From positions 1,237,905-1,301,904 of the forward strand of contig NZ_JAHRYQ010000002.1 in NCBI RefSeq assembly GCF_020622065.1: 64,000 nt of DNA. The letters are read 5' to 3'. This stretch comes from Geothrix sp. Its GTDB lineage: Bacteria; Acidobacteriota; Holophagae; Holophagales; Holophagaceae. Position numbers and translations under genes: made by a program. Below the pieces are notes generated by a model, which made no database searches, had not been told where the DNA came from, and saw nothing but the letters and a program-made list of their open reading frames with translations. Positions 2,101 to 36,740 of the stretch are shown here, piece after piece (the stretch's first letter is position 1; the number at the start of each line of letters is the position of its first letter).

Positions 2101-2383
2101 TCATTTCGAGGACACAGAACCGCCGTTCTCTCTCACGGACCTTTGGGCAATCTCTATGACTGCCTCAGCAAAGCCCCTCAGAGGTTCCCTGACGCGGTCG
2201 CAACTTACGAAGCAGAGCTCATAGGGTGGTCCAGTGGGGTTGATGTCTCCCGTCACCCCAGGAGTCTTCAAGCGCAGCTCGGTTCCGTCCATGCCATTCG
2301 GGTTCCTCGCCCTCCCGGCACACGAAGTCCCAGAATTCCTCAAGAGAGTGGATCGTTGCCCAATCAACAGTGAGCTTGTGCAT
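2101..2383 (-). pseudogene. Barstar-family (ribonuclease inhibitor) gene, +1 frameshifted
   Basis: From the ATG at 2383 the reading frame gives a barstar-like N-terminus. It has a hydrophobic first strand, then S-L-E-E-F-W-D-F, then the hallmark P-E-W-H-G-R-N-x-x-A-L-E-D helix that in barstar blocks the barnase active site. After the tryptophan codon at the G4 run (CCCC on the + strand, 2256-2259) this frame soon hits a stop at 2219-2221. The adjacent frame continues with a barstar-like C-terminal half (YELCFVSCDRVREPL, then an amphipathic helix) to a stop at 2101-2103. Removing one G would restore a 93-residue protein, the usual family length. No barnase-like ribonuclease is visible nearby. 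It is either a recent pseudogene, a homopolymer sequencing error or, less likely, a programmed shift. Confidence 0.75.
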
Positions 2384-2422
2384 GACTTCTTGAGTGTGCC
2401 CGAGGCGCCACTTGATGTGGCG

Positions 2423-2476
2423 CCGGAGCGAGATCGGCGGCTGGCGAAGCCAGACGCAGGTCGAATCCCGCTCCGG
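2423..2476 (+). other. tRNA/tmRNA-like remnant at the edge of the accessory stretch
   Basis: A 7-base stem (CCGGAGC at 2423-2429 with GCTCCGG at 2470-2476) encloses 40 bases ending in GCAGGTCGAATCCCGC, which resembles a tRNA or tmRNA T-arm. It is too short for a complete tRNA, and the T-stem does not pair properly. It sits at the transition from lower-GC accessory DNA to the GC-rich core, where 3' fragments of tRNA genes often mark integration sites. The call is tentative. Confidence 0.3.
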
Positions 2477-2581
2477 TGGGGCGGTGCGGAAAAGGGGGAG
2501 TGGCCGATCTCCACGAGGCGCCATCCATTAATCGACCCTGTAGTATTCTTACCCTCCCGGGGCGGATCTCCTCCCGTCCCG

Positions 2582-3010
2582 ATGGAGAGCCTGATGCCAT
2601 CCGAGCGCTGGCGGGAGCAGTACGAGACCGGGCTGGAGCCCATCGATGCCCAGCACCGGGGGCTGTTCGAGGCCCTGGACCGGCTGGCGGGGGCCCTTGG
2701 CTCCACGGCGAAGGGCCGAATGGATGAATCCCGGGTGGATGAGGAGCTGGCCTTCATCGCCCAGCACATCATCCGGCACTGCCAGACCGAGGAGTCCCTC
2801 ATGAAGGAGATGGGGTTCCCCGGGCGCCTCGCCCACGCGGAGCAGCACCTGGAGCTGATCCACCGGGCCCGCGACCTCCAGTACCGGCGGCTCAAGGGAC
2901 AGCGGGTGGATCTGGAGGTGGTCGCGTTCCTGGACGCCTGGCTGGATCACCACATCTGCGAGTCGGACCTGGCTTATGTGGCGTACCTGAAGGATCACCG
3001 GGGCGCTTGA
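2582..3010 (+). CDS. Bacteriohemerythrin (142 aa)
   Basis: This is a single-domain hemerythrin, a four-helix bundle that binds O2 at a non-heme di-iron site in the cytoplasm and serves in O2 sensing, storage or delivery. The expected ligands appear in order: a histidine in the first helix (DAQHRGLFE), H-C-Q-T-E-E-S on the second, H-A-E-Q-H on the third and D-H-H-I-C-E-S-D on the fourth. The length matches the family. The open frame extends much further 5', but hemerythrin homology begins at the ATG at 2582; a second ATG lies four codons later. It converges with the E1-beta gene. Such proteins are common in microaerophilic and metal-reducing bacteria. Confidence 0.9.
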   Translation: MESLMPSERWREQYETGLEPIDAQHRGLFEALDRLAGALGSTAKGRMDESRVDEELAFIAQHIIRHCQTEESLMKEMGFPGRLAHAEQHLELIHRARDLQYRRLKGQRVDLEVVAFLDAWLDHHICESDLAYVAYLKDHRGA

Positions 3011-3050
3011 GGAACAGCTCCCCGGTGATCCAGTCCGGTGATCCGCGGCC

Positions 3051-4034
<984 letters not shown>

Positions 4035-4043
4035 GGGGGCTCC

Positions 4044-5006
4044 TCAGGCGTAGACGCCGGCGGTGAGTTCAGAGGGATCGGGGTAGGGGGAGGCGGTGGC
4101 GAAGTCCGCAGCCGCTTCCATGGCGGCGCGGGCCTCGGCGCGGAGGGCTTCGAGGCTTTCCCGGGTCAGTTCGCCGGAGGCCAGGAGGCGATCCTCCAGG
4201 CGGGCGATGGGATCCTTGGCCAGCCAGGCCTGGATCTCGGCGGGATCCACATAGGACTGGTCATGGGGTTCCATGTGGCCCCGCTGGCGGTAGGTCCAGG
4301 CTTCCAGAAGGAAGGGGCGGCGGGTGGCGCGCACCTGCGCCGCGGCACGGGTGGCGGCTTCCAGCACGGCTTCCGCATCGTTGCCGTCCACCGTGAGGCT
4401 GTCCATGCCGTAGGAGGCGGCCCAGGGGGCGATGTGGTCGCCCACCATGGTCTCCTTGCGGTGCACGAAGGCCTGCCACTGGTTGTTCTCGCAGACATAG
4501 AGCACTGGCAGATTCCACACGGAGGCCAGGTTCAGCGACTCGTGAAAGATGCCTTCGCAGGCGGCGCCATCGCCGAAGAAGCAGACCACGATGCCCTCGC
4601 CGCCGAGCAGGCTGCGCGAGAGCGCCACGCCGGGGGCCAGAGAGAGCTCCCCGCCCACGATGGTGGAGGTGAGGATGACACCCAGCTCCTTGGCGGAGAT
4701 GTGCAGGGTGCCGCTGCGGCCCTTGCAGTAGCCCGTGCTGCGGCCCATGACCTCGGCCAGGAGGCGGCCGGGATCGGCGCCGCGGGCCAGGAGGTGCCCG
4801 GCGCTGCGGTGGTTGGTGAGGATCTGGTCGTCGGGGTGGAGGGCGGAGACCACGCCCACGGCGGTGGCCTCCTGGCCCACGGAGGTGCAGACATGGGGGA
4901 AGGGGCCCCGTTCATGGAAGGCCACGATCTTTTCTTCGTAGGCCCGGATGCGGAGCATGGCCCCGAGCAGGTCGAGGCGGGTGGGGGCGGGTCGGGAGGG
5001 GTGCAT
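4044..5006 (-). CDS. 2-oxoacid dehydrogenase E1 component, alpha subunit (320 aa)
   Basis: This is the thiamine-diphosphate-binding alpha subunit. The TPP/Mg motif G-D-G-A-A-C-E-G is followed 27 residues later by E-N-N, the standard GDG-X-NN signature. An H-R-S segment precedes C-K-G-R-S-G-T-L-H, resembling AcoA/PdhA-type enzymes. The gene lies 9 bases upstream of the beta subunit and 24 bases downstream of the diheme protein gene, so all are probably co-transcribed. The E1 heterotetramer decarboxylates a 2-oxoacid; without a local E2 the acceptor could be an E2 encoded elsewhere or an artificial-type acceptor such as a cytochrome (speculative). Confidence 0.9.
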   Translation of the reverse strand: MHPSRPAPTRLDLLGAMLRIRAYEEKIVAFHERGPFPHVCTSVGQEATAVGVVSALHPDDQILTNHRSAGHLLARGADPGRLLAEVMGRSTGYCKGRSGTLHISAKELGVILTSTIVGGELSLAPGVALSRSLLGGEGIVVCFFGDGAACEGIFHESLNLASVWNLPVLYVCENNQWQAFVHRKETMVGDHIAPWAASYGMDSLTVDGNDAEAVLEAATRAAAQVRATRRPFLLEAWTYRQRGHMEPHDQSYVDPAEIQAWLAKDPIARLEDRLLASGELTRESLEALRAEARAAMEAAADFATASPYPDPSELTAGVYA

Positions 5007-5030
5007 GGCGTCCTCGAGGGTGGGTGGAGG

Positions 5031-6041
5031 TCAGTGGGAGGGAAGGAACGGCGAGTCGGCGATCCAGCGGCGGAGGTGGTCCACCGCCGCCTGGTCCACC
5101 AGGACCGAGCCCAGGGGCGGCATCTGGGAGAGGGCATGGCGCGAGGCCATGCGGTGGAGCAGCGCACTGCGCTCCGGGTGGCCGGGGCTCAGGATCCGCG
5201 AGTCCGCCTGACCGGGAATGCGGTACGAGCCGGGTTGATCCAGGGCCGTGCGGAGGGCGGCTCGGGGGCGGAGGTCCAGCTGGAGGCCCGGGATGGGTCG
5301 GTCCGCGCGGTGGCAGGCGGCGCAGTTGGCCTGGAGATAGCCCAGCGCCGTGCGGGTGGCCGGGGCCTCGGCGGCGATGCGGGGCGGGTGGCTCAGCAGG
5401 TCCGGGCGGGCCCCCCGCAGGAGGCGCCGGACCACCAGGTCGTCGAGGGTGATCATGCCCGGCTGCAGGGCCTCGGCGTGGAGGGCGCCGGGATCGCGAT
5501 CCGGCGAAAGCTGAAGGGCGTTGAAGCCCAGGATCTCCACCTGCTCCCGGCCGTGGCAGCCGCGGCAGTCCTCCCGGGAGGGGATGCTGTGGCGCAGGCC
5601 GGGGGCGATCTCGGCGGCCTCCGGCTGGCCGCCCTCGGGCACGAGCGTGGCGTCGGTCTGGGCCTCGTTCCAGGCATAGCTGGCGAAGACCCAGGTCGCC
5701 GGGCCGGTCTTCCAGATCAGGCGCGTCTCCACCTTGCGGCCGCCGAAGCGGAACTCCTTCCAGGCCTTGGTGCCCACGGGGAGGACCCAGCCCTCCTCGT
5801 CGCGCCCGTCGATGACCGTCCCCGCCGGGAGGTGGAGCCACCGGGACTTGGCGGCGCCATCGGTCCACAGCGGGTACTGGGGCGCATAGGCCAGGTGGCG
5901 GGCGTCCACCACCCCGGAGGCGGCGTAGAGGCCGGTCTGGGACAGCAGGCGGGGCGGCTGGGGGAGGGTTCGGGGGAGGGTCCGGGCAGCCCCCGGCACC
6001 AGGCCGAAGGCCGCCAGGGCGGCGAGGAGGAGTGCGCGCAT
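5031..6041 (-). CDS. Exported diheme c-type cytochrome, SO_2930-like (336 aa)
   Basis: A signal peptide covers residues 1-19. Two c-type heme motifs are present, C-R-G-C-H (159-163) and C-A-A-C-H (240-244), and a methionine in Q-M-P-P-L-G near the C-terminus is a likely axial ligand. The N-terminal 150 residues (Y-P-L-W-T-D-G-A-x-K, W-x-L-P-x-G-T) match the conserved region of the uncharacterised SO_2930/HNE_0200 group of periplasmic diheme proteins. It lies 13 bases downstream of the monoheme cytochrome gene. The role is periplasmic electron transfer or substrate oxidation; the donor is unknown. Confidence 0.8.
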   Translation of the reverse strand: MRALLLAALAAFGLVPGAARTLPRTLPQPPRLLSQTGLYAASGVVDARHLAYAPQYPLWTDGAAKSRWLHLPAGTVIDGRDEEGWVLPVGTKAWKEFRFGGRKVETRLIWKTGPATWVFASYAWNEAQTDATLVPEGGQPEAAEIAPGLRHSIPSREDCRGCHGREQVEILGFNALQLSPDRDPGALHAEALQPGMITLDDLVVRRLLRGARPDLLSHPPRIAAEAPATRTALGYLQANCAACHRADRPIPGLQLDLRPRAALRTALDQPGSYRIPGQADSRILSPGHPERSALLHRMASRHALSQMPPLGSVLVDQAAVDHLRRWIADSPFLPSH

Positions 6042-31331: not shown

Positions 31332-32198
31332 ATGGCGAACGCGACGCATCTGAGATGGAAACTGGAAGTCCCGGACCCCCAGGAAGAAGGGCTCTGCACC
31401 TGGCTGGAGGGGGCCGGTTCCTCCGCCTTCTATCGCGAGGCCGATCCGCCGCGGGCCTGCTACGCCTACTTCCCGCCGGACCAGGCGCCTCCTGAAGCGG
31501 GTGGCCTGGCCGCGTTCCCCGGTGTGCGCCTGCTTGAGACCGAGACCTTCGGGGACGAGGACTGGCTGGCCAAGAGCCGGGAGGGTTTCGGCGCCTTCGA
31601 AGTGGGCGCGCGCTTCCATGTGCGGCCCCTCTGGGACGAGACGCCCGCCCCTGCGGACCGCTTCGACCTCGTGGTGAACCCCGGCCTAGCCTTCGGCACC
31701 GGCGGCCACGAGACCACCCGCCTCTGCATCGAGCTGCTGGAGGAACTCGCCGCGGCGGGTCGCCTGAAGGGGCCGGTCCTCGACATCGGCGCGGGCACCG
31801 GCATCCTGTCGCTGGCCGCCTTCCTGCTGGGGGGCCGGGACCTCACGGCCTTCGACAACGACCCCGACTGCGGGCCCGCGATGGAAGAGTTCATTGCGCT
31901 CAATGCGCACCTGCTGAAAGGCGCGAAACCCTACGACAGCTTCGTCGGCACGCTGGATCACCCGCGCGTGCAGGGCCCCTATCCCGGCCTGCTGGCCAAC
32001 ATCCTGCTGGAGACCATCCAGGAGCTGCTGCCCCGCATGGCCGAAGTGGCCGCGCCCGGAGGCTGGCTCATCGCCAGCGGCATCCTGGCCGAGCGCACGG
32101 ACGAGGCCCTGGTGAGCCTCGTCTCCCACGGGTTCAAGCCCGAGAAGGTGCGGACGGAAGGCGAGTGGATCGCCGTGCTGGCGGTGCGGGCATCATGA
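31332..32198 (+). CDS. prmA: Ribosomal protein L11 methyltransferase-like protein (288 aa)
   Basis: This is a class I SAM-dependent methyltransferase: G-T-G-G-H-E-T-T, then D-I-G-A-G-T-G-I-L-S (motif I), D-N-D-P-D and the A-N-I-L-L motif that replaces NPPY in PrmA. Length matches PrmA (about 290). It trimethylates L11. The ATG at 31332 follows GAGGGG and starts where homology begins. TACCCT lies six bases before the ATG. The stop overlaps the murI start as ATGA. Confidence 0.88.
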   Translation: MANATHLRWKLEVPDPQEEGLCTWLEGAGSSAFYREADPPRACYAYFPPDQAPPEAGGLAAFPGVRLLETETFGDEDWLAKSREGFGAFEVGARFHVRPLWDETPAPADRFDLVVNPGLAFGTGGHETTRLCIELLEELAAAGRLKGPVLDIGAGTGILSLAAFLLGGRDLTAFDNDPDCGPAMEEFIALNAHLLKGAKPYDSFVGTLDHPRVQGPYPGLLANILLETIQELLPRMAEVAAPGGWLIASGILAERTDEALVSLVSHGFKPEKVRTEGEWIAVLAVRAS

Positions 32199-32986
32199 GC
32201 CGCGCGGACCGTCCGATCGGCATCTTCGACTCGGGCATCGGCGGGCTCACGGTCATCCATGCCCTGCGCCAGCTGCTGCCCCAGGAGGACCTGGTCTACC
32301 TCGGCGACACGGCCCGGCTGCCCTACGGCACCAAGAGCCACCGCACCATCGAGCGCTACACGCTGCAGATGGGCGAGCTGCTGCAGCGCCACGAGCCGAA
32401 GCTCATCGTCATCGCCTGCAACACCGCCAGCGCCCACGGGCTGCCGGCCCTGCAGGCCGTGAGCCCCTGCCCCGTGATCGGGGTGATCGAACCTGGCGCC
32501 GAGGCCGCGGCGGAGGTTCCGGGTCCCGTGGGCATCATCGGCACCCTGGCCACCGTGAGCAGCGCGGCCTACGAACTCGCCATCCGGCGCCGCGACCCCG
32601 GCAAGGTCATCCACAGCGTGGCCTGTCCCCTGCTGGTGCCCCTGGCGGAGGAGGGGTGGTTCGATGATCCGGTCACCGACAGCATCTGCCGCCGCTACAT
32701 GAACGAGCTGCCCTTCGAGGTGAAGACCGTGGTGCTGGGCTGCACCCACTACCCGACGCTGATGACGAGCCTGGAACGCAGCCGTCCCGGCACCCGCTGG
32801 ATCGACAGCGGCCGCGTCACCGCCAAGGCTGTGGACCGGATGCTGCAGGGCACCCTCGGCTACCGCACCGCCGGCGCCCGCGGCAGCCTTCGCGTCCAGC
32901 TCACCGACGCCAGCAGCCGCCTGAAGGAAGTGGGCAGCCGCTTCTTGGAAGAGGCGCTGGGGGATGTCGAAGTGGTGGAGATTTAA
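32195..32986 (+). CDS. murI: Glutamate racemase (263 aa)
   Basis: MurI interconverts L- and D-glutamate for peptidoglycan. The N-terminal G-I-F-D-S-G-I-G-G-L-T-V and the two catalytic cysteines C75 (A-C-N-T-A-S) and C183 (G-C-T-H-Y-P) are all present, and the length is normal. Translation is coupled to prmA through an ATGA overlap. Confidence 0.95.
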   Translation: MSRADRPIGIFDSGIGGLTVIHALRQLLPQEDLVYLGDTARLPYGTKSHRTIERYTLQMGELLQRHEPKLIVIACNTASAHGLPALQAVSPCPVIGVIEPGAEAAAEVPGPVGIIGTLATVSSAAYELAIRRRDPGKVIHSVACPLLVPLAEEGWFDDPVTDSICRRYMNELPFEVKTVVLGCTHYPTLMTSLERSRPGTRWIDSGRVTAKAVDRMLQGTLGYRTAGARGSLRVQLTDASSRLKEVGSRFLEEALGDVEVVEI

Positions 32987-33030
32987 TCCAGGCCCGGCCC
33001 GTCAGTATCATCGTGGGTCTAGGGGGCGGG

Positions 33031-34149
33031 ATGAAAGGATTGGCCGGGGTTCGCCTGCTGAGAGCTCGGCTCCACTTCGCGCGCCGGCGTGAGCAGGGCC
33101 AGGTGTGGGCCTATCCCCTGCTGAAAGTGGCCAAGTTATTCCACAAGATGCATCGGTGGGCCAGCCCAGGGTCCATCCGGGTTCCCAAGACCACGGAGGG
33201 TGGGGCGCTCCCGTGTCCCATCCCCTTTCGGGAAATGGTCATCAACTGCGATGGGACGGTGGCCTGCGGCTCGACCGCCCAAGCCCCGATCCTGGACGCT
33301 TTGATCGAGGGCGCTGGATCGGTCGGCCTGACGGGGATCTGGGAGGGTGAAGGATTCCGGTCCATGCGGGCCCGCATGCTGGCGGGGGACCGGAGCGCCT
33401 GTTTAGAGTGTCATCTGAATCGGTGTCCGGGCTTCGAGCCGTTGTCGGATGAAGAACGGGCATCGGGCGGGGGAGGGGCTCCGTGGATTCACCAGCTGCT
33501 GATCGAACCCACGGCCGTGTGCAATTTCGATTGCCCCACCATTTGCGGACACAGCTTCCCGAAAGCGAAGCAGCCTGTCTCGGGCCGACGGGTGAAATTC
33601 ATGCCGATGGATCTCTTCCGGCAGCTGGTCGAAGCCATCGACCTGCCCATCGACAAGATCTGCTTCTACAACTACGGTGAGCCGCTCCTCCATCCGGAAT
33701 TCAGCGCGATGTGCCGCCTGATGCGGGAGCGCTGCCCGTCATCCCTCATCACCACCAGCACGAATGGCAGCAGGCTCGGGGATCCGGGCGTTCGGGCTGG
33801 GCTGCTGGCCTCGGGCCTGGATGAGATCATCATTTCCGTGGACGGCGCCAGCCAGGCCACCTACGAAGTCTATCGGCGCGGGGGCCGATTGGAGGACATC
33901 CTTCGGGGCATGCGCCTGTTGAAGGACGAGCGGGACCGGGCGGGGCTGCTGCGGCCGAGAATCCTGTGGCGCTACATCCTGTTCCCATGGAACGACAGTG
34001 ACGAGGAACTCGCGGAAGCGGAAAGGCTGGCTGGGGAGATTGGGGTCGATCGCTTCTGCTACCACCTCTCGGACCTGCCGGAGATGGCCTCGGAAACCTA
34101 CCGGCCTGGGACCGCCGCCTTTGAGCGCATTCGGGGCAGGCTGTTCTGA
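33031..34149 (+). CDS. Radical SAM protein with N-terminal SPASM-like Cys cluster and CX3CX3C core (372 aa)
   Basis: The radical SAM half begins near residue 155. A-V-C164-N-F-D-C168-P-T-I-C172 binds the SAM cluster but has spacing CX3CX3C instead of the canonical CX3CX2C. It is followed by Y-N-Y-G-E-P-L (GGEP-type motif), S-T-N-G and I-S-V-D-G-A-S, typical of the SPASM-associated branch. The N-terminal half (60-135) has the hallmarks of a SPASM/twitch domain: P-C62-P-I-P-F, I-N-C73-D-G-T-V-A-C79, G-I-W-E-G and C124-x-x-C127-x(4)-C132. That domain is normally C-terminal; here it precedes the core. The start at 33031 follows GGGGGCGGG. The substrate is unknown; peptide or cofactor maturation and cell-envelope modification are possibilities. 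Confidence 0.85.
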   Translation: MKGLAGVRLLRARLHFARRREQGQVWAYPLLKVAKLFHKMHRWASPGSIRVPKTTEGGALPCPIPFREMVINCDGTVACGSTAQAPILDALIEGAGSVGLTGIWEGEGFRSMRARMLAGDRSACLECHLNRCPGFEPLSDEERASGGGGAPWIHQLLIEPTAVCNFDCPTICGHSFPKAKQPVSGRRVKFMPMDLFRQLVEAIDLPIDKICFYNYGEPLLHPEFSAMCRLMRERCPSSLITTSTNGSRLGDPGVRAGLLASGLDEIIISVDGASQATYEVYRRGGRLEDILRGMRLLKDERDRAGLLRPRILWRYILFPWNDSDEELAEAERLAGEIGVDRFCYHLSDLPEMASETYRPGTAAFERIRGRLF

Positions 34150-34155
34150 ATCCGC

Positions 34156-35775
34156 TCAGGCCACCGCGCCGGGCAGGGTGAATACCACGCAGGTGCCCTT
34201 GCCTTCGGTGCTGTCGAGGCGGATGTCGCCCCCGTGGTTGCGGACGATCTCGCGGCAGATGCTGAGCCCAAGGCCGGTGCCCTTGCCCTCGGGCTTGGTG
34301 GTGAACATGGGGCGGAAGACCTGGCTCAGCAGGTCTGCGGGGATGCCCTGGCCCGAATCGGAGAAGCGCAGCTCCCACCAGGGGCCGTTGGGGGTGCTGT
34401 CCTCGGCGGGCTTCGCCGCAAGGCGCACGGTCCCGCCGGCGGGCATGGCGTCCACGGCGTTCTTCATGAGGTTGAGGAAGAGCTGTTCCATCTGCTTGCG
34501 GTCGACATCCAGGCGGCAGCCGGCGGGGATCTCGGTTTCCACGGTGACCCCATGCGAGGTCAGCGTGGGCGCCCATAGTTGCTGGAGGTCGTCCAGAAGA
34601 TCTGCGAAGGCCTGGGCCTCCCGGTGCAGCTGGGGGCGCCGGGTGAGGTCGAGCATGCGGCGCACGATGTCGCCCACGCGTTGGATCTGGGCGTGGATCA
34701 CCCGGAGGCGTTCACGCAGCTTGTCGGGGAGATCCGACTGGGCATCCATGAGCTGGAGGTGGCCATTCACCAGATTGAGGGGCGTGCCCACCTCGTGGGC
34801 GAAAGTGGCCGCGAGCTGGCCAGCCACGGCGAGCCGTTCCTGGGTGCTGAGTTCCTCCCGCAGCAGCGCCATGCGCTCGGCCATGGAGGCCAGTTCGGCG
34901 TTCTTGGCCTGAAGTTCGGACAGGGCGGCATCGATGCGGTCCTGCAGGTTGGCGTTCAGGCCGCGGATTTCGCGGATCAGGGCCTCGCGCTCCTCGCCCG
35001 CCCGCTCGAGTTGGACGGCCATCTCGTTGAAGCGGGTGGCGATCAGGCCCAGCTCATCGCTGCGCTTGATGGTCACGCGAGCCTTGGCTTCACCGCGCTC
35101 CAGCTGCTGCATGGCCAGCACCATGGCCTCGATGGGGTCGCTGATGAGCACCCGCAGGATGAGCCAGAGGAGGATGAACTCGCCAAGGAGGACGCCAGGG
35201 AGGGTGTGGAGGGTGCGCTTCAGGTTGTTGTCCCAGATCACATCCCAGCGCTCCAGGTCACAGTAGACGCGGATGAGGCCCAGGGGCGGCTGGCCAGGCT
35301 TGTGGGAGCGGATGGGCTGATAGACCTTCCAGGCCCGGCTGCCGGTATTCAGATCCACCAACTCCGCCTGGGAAGCGGTCAACGCGAGGTAGGAGCCGAT
35401 CTCGGGGCCCCAATCCACATTGGCCTCGTCCCCGGAGGAACGCACCAGCTCCACCTCGTTGCTCTTGCCGATGCGCTTGAAGACATCGATCTGGAAGATG
35501 CTGCGGTCTGGGCCGGCAATGCTGGAAAGCAGCTGATCGAGCTTGTCGGGATCCTTGAAGCCGGGATCCCGCTCCACCACATCCGTCTCCACGGTGCCGG
35601 CGGTGTCGATGGTCAGCTTGCGGGTGTAACTTTCCAGCTCCCGGCCGCTGTTGCGGGTGATGTTGTAGGCGACGGCCACCGTGAGAACGCTGGTGACGAG
35701 ACCCAGAAGCAGGAAGAGCTTGGCGTGGACGCTGCGCAGCCAGGCCAGGGGACGGATGCGCACGCGCCGCAGCAT
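34156..35775 (-). CDS. Membrane sensor histidine kinase with HAMP domain (539 aa)
   Basis: A transmembrane helix at 19-37 and a second at about 194-212 enclose an extracytoplasmic sensor region. HAMP and a coiled coil (212-315) lead to the H-box with His327 (F-A-H-E-V-G-T-P-L-N). The ATPase domain shows N-L-M-K-N-A-V-D-A, D-S-G-Q-G-I-P, F-T-T-K-P-E-G-K-G-T-G-L-G-L. It is a NtrB-like orphan: no response regulator is adjacent. Its start overlaps the stop of the CHAD gene (TGATG), so the two are translated together. Confidence 0.92.
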   Translation of the reverse strand: MLRRVRIRPLAWLRSVHAKLFLLLGLVTSVLTVAVAYNITRNSGRELESYTRKLTIDTAGTVETDVVERDPGFKDPDKLDQLLSSIAGPDRSIFQIDVFKRIGKSNEVELVRSSGDEANVDWGPEIGSYLALTASQAELVDLNTGSRAWKVYQPIRSHKPGQPPLGLIRVYCDLERWDVIWDNNLKRTLHTLPGVLLGEFILLWLILRVLISDPIEAMVLAMQQLERGEAKARVTIKRSDELGLIATRFNEMAVQLERAGEEREALIREIRGLNANLQDRIDAALSELQAKNAELASMAERMALLREELSTQERLAVAGQLAATFAHEVGTPLNLVNGHLQLMDAQSDLPDKLRERLRVIHAQIQRVGDIVRRMLDLTRRPQLHREAQAFADLLDDLQQLWAPTLTSHGVTVETEIPAGCRLDVDRKQMEQLFLNLMKNAVDAMPAGGTVRLAAKPAEDSTPNGPWWELRFSDSGQGIPADLLSQVFRPMFTTKPEGKGTGLGLSICREIVRNHGGDIRLDSTEGKGTCVVFTLPGAVA

Positions 35776-36683
35776 CACAGGGAGCCGTCGGCGGGCGGGA
35801 GCCCCAGGGCCGCGCGCGCCTCGCGGGAGAAGGCCACGGGGCCCTGCTTCTGGGCCAGGGTGGTGAAGCGGTCGAAGGCGGCCCGGCGGGCTTCGGCCAC
35901 CTCGCCCAGGAGTTCCAGGACGCCCCCGCGGAGGGTGCCCCGATCCCGGCTGCGGAGTCCGGCCTCCGTTTCCCACAACAGAGCCTCGAGGGTGGCGAGG
36001 TCGTGGTGTTCCCCCAGGGCGGTCTGGAGACCGCGCAGCTCCTTCAAGAGGGCCTCGGGCGGCACGGCGAAGGCGCTTTCCAGGGCCTCCAGCGCGTAGC
36101 GCAGCTTCTTGATGCGCACCCGCGCCTTGTGCAGGGCGGGGGCATCTTCCTGGGCGGCCAGGGGGGCCAGATCCCCCAGCGCAGCCTCCACGCGGGGCCC
36201 CAGGCAGGCCCAGGCCGCCTCCTGGAGCGAAGTCTGCTGGAAGGGGTCGCGCAGGGCCGGAACTTCCAGCAACCGCTGCAGATCCGGGAGGCGGAGGCGC
36301 TCCAGCTCTCGGCGCATGGCCCGGCGGGCCTTGGCGCGGGCGCGGTCCATCCCCTCCAGCAGGTGTTCGAGGGCGGCGGCCTGAACCGGGTTCCGGGTTT
36401 CGAGGAGCCGGGCCCTCAGACCGTCCGCGTGGACATCGAGTTCGCGGGGCAGGCCAAGGACATCCACCAGATCCTTCAGGGCCCGGCGCCGGGTCTTGTG
36501 GCCGGGATAGGCCTCGGCATCCACCAGGTCGAGCACCGCGCCGAGGCGCCGGGCCGAGACGCGCACCTGGTGCAGCTGTTCCATGTCGTCGGCCCAGTCC
36601 TCCGGAGCCAGCAGCGCCTGCAGGCCCGCCAGCCGGACCTCCAGGGCGCGGTGGAGCAGGATCGCCAGTTCGGCTGGATGCAT
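35775..36683 (-). CDS. CHAD-domain protein (302 aa)
   Basis: This is an all-helical CHAD domain with the conserved positive patches H-Q-V-R-V-S-A-R-R-L near residue 40 and L-H-K-A-R-V-R-I-K-K-L-R-Y near residue 190. It is followed by L-G-E-H-H-D-L-A. CHAD domains bind polyphosphate. There is no CYTH triphosphatase domain fused. Coupling to a histidine kinase gene is unusual and suggests a shared regulatory role. TAGAAT lies six bases before the start codon, so the message may be leaderless. Confidence 0.9.
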   Translation of the reverse strand: MHPAELAILLHRALEVRLAGLQALLAPEDWADDMEQLHQVRVSARRLGAVLDLVDAEAYPGHKTRRRALKDLVDVLGLPRELDVHADGLRARLLETRNPVQAAALEHLLEGMDRARAKARRAMRRELERLRLPDLQRLLEVPALRDPFQQTSLQEAAWACLGPRVEAALGDLAPLAAQEDAPALHKARVRIKKLRYALEALESAFAVPPEALLKELRGLQTALGEHHDLATLEALLWETEAGLRSRDRGTLRGGVLELLGEVAEARRAAFDRFTTLAQKQGPVAFSREARAALGLPPADGSL

Positions 36684-36740
36684 CCCATGATTCTAGACGC
36701 AATCCGCAGAAGCGAAAAAATGGCGTAAACTGGAGCGACC

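Follow-up and report, generated by a model that had tools for sequence, protein, structure and literature searches.

The window, a 64,000 nt stretch of a Geothrix sp. contig, carries on the forward strand (33031..34149, +) a gene for a 372 aa radical SAM protein with an N-terminal Twitch domain, a reading based on the ORF, its homologues and a dN/dS of 0.24 against the orthologue of a second genome (G032). On re-checking, the initial annotation of this DNA proved correct in its reading frame, strand, coordinates and residue numbering. A G-rich stretch lies immediately 5' of the ATG and could be a ribosome site. The radical SAM core spans residues 158–327 (33502..34011, +) and is identified by Pfam PF04055 (45.4 bits, E 1.3e-11, above the gathering score of 29.5), an AlphaFold2 model and a fold search. 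Ahead of it lies a Twitch/SPASM-type auxiliary cluster domain, residues 62–128 (33214..33414, +), recognized by invariant Cys residues, a swapped-order match to BtrN (see below) and a Pfam SPASM match of 19.2 bits (E 0.0015), slightly below the cut-off of 21.5; in one homologue, the SPASM match is above the cut-off (E 2.2e-10). The core cluster motif, C164-NFD-C168-PTI-C172 (CX3CX3C; 33520..33546, +), is at a place where canonical relatives are one residue shorter, and the 'YNYGE' strand of residues 213–217 (33667..33681, +), in which N214 and Y215 are invariant, is the counterpart of the radical SAM GGE motif. Cys residues occur at positions 62, 73, 79, 124, 127, 132, 164, 168, 172, 211, 228, 235 and 343; in 20,000 shuffled versions of the protein, the nine-Cys spacing pattern never appeared.

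The gene lies between murI, for glutamate racemase (32165..32986, +), and a convergent histidine kinase ORF (34156..36702, -), which form the left and right borders of an insertion site; the true start of the kinase is probably well inside its ORF. Free DNA is restricted to 44 nt on the murI side (gene end at 32986) and 6 nt on the kinase side (ORF end at 34156). These flanks hold no room for a precursor peptide gene, in agreement with the initial annotation, which had seen none nearby. A query consisting of the flanks was matched in all 47 genomes of the genus that were searched, and the radical SAM gene in two of the 47. The distance between murI and the kinase gene was 0–26 nt in 9 of 30 loci examined; in others the gap is filled by unrelated DNA, at most about 1 kb long, and no remnant of the radical SAM gene was seen at sister sites among these 30 loci. 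The junction itself (32987-34155 in the window) appears as a variable slot in the genus, holding roughly 0.1–1 kb of other DNA in some genomes. The GC3 of the radical SAM gene is 0.80, compared to 0.88–0.92 for murI, prmA and uvrA. Taken together, the empty sister sites without remnants, the dN/dS value and the lower GC3 read as a single cargo gene that a common ancestor of both genomes acquired and that was kept under selection.

A two-step search of 396 genomes sampled from the same phylum retrieved full-length, two-domain relatives from 34 of them, and weaker ones occur besides (e.g., in G350). The family alignment (A2) consists of 33 rows, and the family is described here from this phylum. 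The nearest homologue is the orthologue of G032, which is 89–90% identical and occupies the same locus, and the next are at 32–38% identity over the Twitch and core regions. These more distant proteins share the architecture and the invariant residues of the window protein, but their third core Cys lies one residue later (CX3CX4C), and most have an extra C-terminal Ig-like domain (N_BRCA1_IG in L003, 1096-2934, -) that the window copy lacks. Two copies from one genus look damaged: L080:9893-10825 (-) has a C164Y change and YSE in place of YGE, and L084 (genome G286) has an in-frame TAG in the core. Closer relatives were sought around G057 and G077, and none were found. No relatives were detected in viral contigs with A1, and the viral proteins matched by A2 were standard-order radical SAM relatives only. 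One scan of genome contigs turned up nothing but a SPASM relative with a canonical motif, on a contig from Spirochaetia, and tblastn searches of plasmids gave distant matches (33% identity or less), the best of which, L147, reads CILECPGC and is canonical.

An N-terminal cluster of six Cys had been described in the initial annotation. Four of them (C62, C79, C124 and C127) are invariant in 33/33 family members; in a second alignment, made up mostly of phage N-Twitch proteins, all four align collinearly with conservation of 90% or more, and they are probably the ligands of the auxiliary cluster. The other two did not hold up, as C73 is Cys in 29 of the 33 rows and C132 is confined to the window protein and its same-genus orthologue. 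Since only four N-terminal Cys are invariant, the alignment indicates a one-cluster, four-Cys Twitch domain and not a two-cluster SPASM domain; SPASM enzymes of the latter kind have a seven-Cys domain with two auxiliary clusters, which this family is without. The remaining invariant residues of the A2 alignment are D74-G75, W104 and R113 on the Twitch side, and E159, N165, C168, N214-Y215, H221, N245-G246, S269, D271-G272, W313-R314-Y315 and N321-D322 on the core side.

The placement of an auxiliary-cluster domain ahead of the core is borne out by the Pfam matches and by profile comparison. When the 33-row family profile was searched against solved structures, the top match was BtrN (2-deoxy-scyllo-inosamine dehydrogenase, PDB 4M7T), which was matched twice and in swapped order: profile positions 96–219 aligned to residues 22–148 of the BtrN core (i-E 5e-8), and positions 4–79 to residues 184–262 of its Twitch domain (i-E 3e-7). 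The sequence itself thus directly equates the N-terminal domain with the Twitch domain of BtrN. In each protein this domain carries four Cys for a single auxiliary cluster, but in BtrN it comes after the core and in the window protein before it. Twitch and SPASM domains are portrayed as C-terminal extensions (PMC9012708), and, compared to Twitch-containing radical SAM enzymes in general, the window protein departs from the usual position of the domain while sharing the four-Cys homology to BtrN.

The exchanged order had been proposed as undescribed, and this part of the proposal fails. An NCBIfam model, NF033640 ('N_Twi_rSAM'), is already named for an N-terminal Twitch domain followed by the core, and its phage-type members are plentiful: one viral contig encodes a member that scores 236.7 bits, and relatives of this protein are encoded at 69 viral loci. 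The Twitch domain and the core of one member align with A2 in the same order (hhalign 92.9%, E 3.6e-7), and the four Twitch Cys align. However, the window protein reaches only 27.3 bits where the model requires 170, is thus no member by the rule of the model, and is about 20% identical to the proteins it describes. An open-access literature search found no paper on the N-terminal Twitch type. Among NCBIfam models, the best sub-cut-off matches to the core were TIGR04317 and TIGR04311 (metalloenzyme-maturase radical SAM/SPASM), at 83.0 and 79.8 bits, but their cut-offs (380 and 400) are far above these scores and the match is limited to residues 153–342. In these two families the SPASM domain is C-terminal. 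Both domain orders can be found together in viral DNA: a standard-order radical SAM/SPASM ORF (2886-3860) overlaps an N-Twitch radical SAM ORF (3790-5082) in the viral contig L136, and one ORF of each type is present on opposite strands of L131.

The second unusual feature is the core motif. The third Cys is at window position 173 (CX3CX4C) in 30 of the 33 family rows, whereas CX3CX3C, with C172 followed by G173, occurs in the window protein and its G032 orthologue only; the canonical CX3CX2C is seen in L095 and in the more distant L098. Position 172 is Cys in 25/33 rows (including the window protein, G032 and L095) and Ile or Val in eight. In the alignment, C172 lies opposite the third ligand of canonical relatives, not opposite a gap, with one residue inserted, and the window protein has neither a standard CX3CX2C anywhere in its sequence nor a Cys at the canonical position. 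The expanded spacing is therefore real, as had been claimed. A sequencing error was rejected as its cause, as two genomes separated by a dS of 0.22 carry the same motif, and so was a frameshift, the frame being open and under purifying selection. In scannable relatives, 67 distinct motifs with a spacing of 2 were counted, and spacings of 3 or 4 were exclusive to the N-Twitch family of the window gene; the scan stops at the first Cys met, so that a spacing of 4 is undercounted. All 34 viral N-Twitch sequences checked have CX3CX2C. A tree places the window pair with L095 and L098 (support 99/98), a grouping flagged as unsafe because of long branches, that to the window pair being 2.68. Judged from the aligned sequences, a single architecture accommodates second spacings of 2, 3 and 4 residues.

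The stretched spacings (CX3CX3C and CX3CX4C) are apparently new to description in a radical SAM core. In the open-access literature, CX3CX3C was found for such a core only in one review's description of NifB, and elsewhere in a sactibiotic paper, where it denotes peptide spacing; no paper was found that links CX3CX4C with radical SAM. NifB has a CX3CX2C motif, and the wording of the review is for this reason probably a misprint. The canonical motif, absent from the window protein, is usual but not obligatory for the superfamily, and accepted exceptions exist, such as ThiC (CX2CX4C), HmdB (CX5CX2C) and QueE (CX14CX2C) (PMC4389238). Of the undescribed subfamily suggested by the initial annotation, the apparently undescribed core spacing remains, but the permuted order is known and the exact CX3CX3C is shared with one orthologue only. 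It seems improbable that this is a distinct N-Twitch subfamily with a moved third ligand, in which the binding of the cluster or of SAM, and perhaps the reaction as well, would be unlike those of all characterized enzymes.

The motif could also have drifted after transfer, leaving an inactive or decaying copy. The long branch to the window pair, the loss of the near-invariant C173 and C81, the missing C-terminal Ig domain and the existence of decaying copies elsewhere in the family (L080 and L084, above) are in keeping with this. We nevertheless regard it as improbable, given the dN/dS of 0.24 between the two copies, the identity of the C172 site in both genomes, and the retention of the four Twitch Cys, C164/C168/C172, N245, S269, D271 and W313-R314-Y315.

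A usable structural model was obtained when the window protein was aligned with viral N-Twitch relatives (AlphaFold2, mean pLDDT 65.6, pTM 0.68); a single-sequence run was unusable (pLDDT 41.5). Most core blocks have pLDDT values of 70–96 and the Twitch blocks about 50–79, while the loop after the cluster motif (residues 173–185, below 50) and the last 28 residues are of low confidence. The model shows the partial TIM-barrel fold of the core, with DALI-scale Z scores of about 13 to radical SAM enzymes including DesII, MoaA and BlsE. These three and AprD4 were among the top matches of the fold search, which also returned NifB; BtrN was not among the matches listed, an absence to which no weight is given. 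The predicted structure indicates a radical SAM fold whose core is canonical outside the cluster motif. This, along with QueE, where CX14CX2C is accommodated by one extended loop and the geometry is otherwise canonical (PMC4389238), speaks against the stretched motif binding the SAM cluster differently and supporting non-canonical chemistry, for example cleavage of another SAM bond. Non-canonical motifs are known from ThiC, whose CX2CX4C goes with an unusual architecture, and PhnJ (PMC4389238), as well as Dph1-Dph2 (PMC11048331), and the third Cys varies (x2, x3, x4) in this one family, but we consider such chemistry very unlikely here.

In the window, the neighbors murI and histidine kinase give no clue to the substrate. 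In other members of the phylum, most copies lie downstream of an operon for a sigma factor, a STAS protein and an 89 aa protein, near obgE-nadD or lpxC-uvrA, while in a second lineage the gene follows dnaX-ybaB-recR-roadblock-GTPase genes, which have no bearing on sugars. The 88–90 aa protein (c6small; MRxIKTTxGxEIxLDGDLLAVxEALxxEVT...) is conserved between the STAS and radical SAM genes in many of the loci L068-L093, and matches no Pfam family above the cut-off. In many loci, lpxC is a neighbor, but as it is convergent to the family gene, this adjacency may be mere synteny. HldE/heptosyltransferase-type genes adjoin the exchanged-order radical SAM gene in L066, and in L067 the family gene shares 4 nt with an overlapping polysaccharide deacetylase gene. 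L066 also has a C-terminal-SPASM radical SAM gene divergent from the exchanged-order one (148-1788, + and 2293-4131, -).

Like most SPASM/Twitch enzymes of undefined substrate, the protein might be a peptide (RiPP or protein) maturase, acting on a substrate encoded elsewhere or on a house protein. Peptide maturase models match it weakly and below their cut-offs, and c6small (89 aa) lies directly upstream of many homologues; both would fit such a role. In the window, however, the flanks are too short for a precursor. The genome of the window yielded no credible counterpart of c6small (best E 0.3); c6small is absent next to the copies of other lineages, and it lacks a Cys- or Gly-rich core, being regulator-like and set among sigma factor and STAS genes. 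None of the loci examined has a RiPP-like cluster around the family gene, and a maturase appears unlikely. Our leading guess for the substrate, a tentative one, is a small, carbohydrate-like envelope molecule, since aminocyclitol or sugar compounds are the substrates of the nearest solved relatives and envelope-sugar genes adjoin several of the homologues.

Overall, the protein is likely a Twitch-type radical SAM oxidoreductase similar to BtrN, with the domain order exchanged. From family knowledge, a core [4Fe-4S] cluster at C164/C168/C172 would bind SAM and cleave it to a 5'-deoxyadenosyl radical, which would abstract a hydrogen atom from the substrate. A low-potential auxiliary [4Fe-4S] cluster at C62/C79/C124/C127 would then accept the second electron, as proposed for BtrN, whose chemistry and use of the auxiliary cluster as electron acceptor have been reviewed, and whose core Cys (C16/C20/C23) form a canonical CX3CX2C (PMC9012708). 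The extra residue between C168 and C172 would lengthen the cluster loop, with the chemistry expected to be unchanged. The exchanged order makes the subfamily a good first target for testing whether an auxiliary cluster can function from the opposite terminus. Radical SAM enzymes are usually recognized by their CX3CX2C signature; its second spacing varies naturally in this family, and the members with 2, 3 and 4 residues offer a natural series for probing the role of the spacing.
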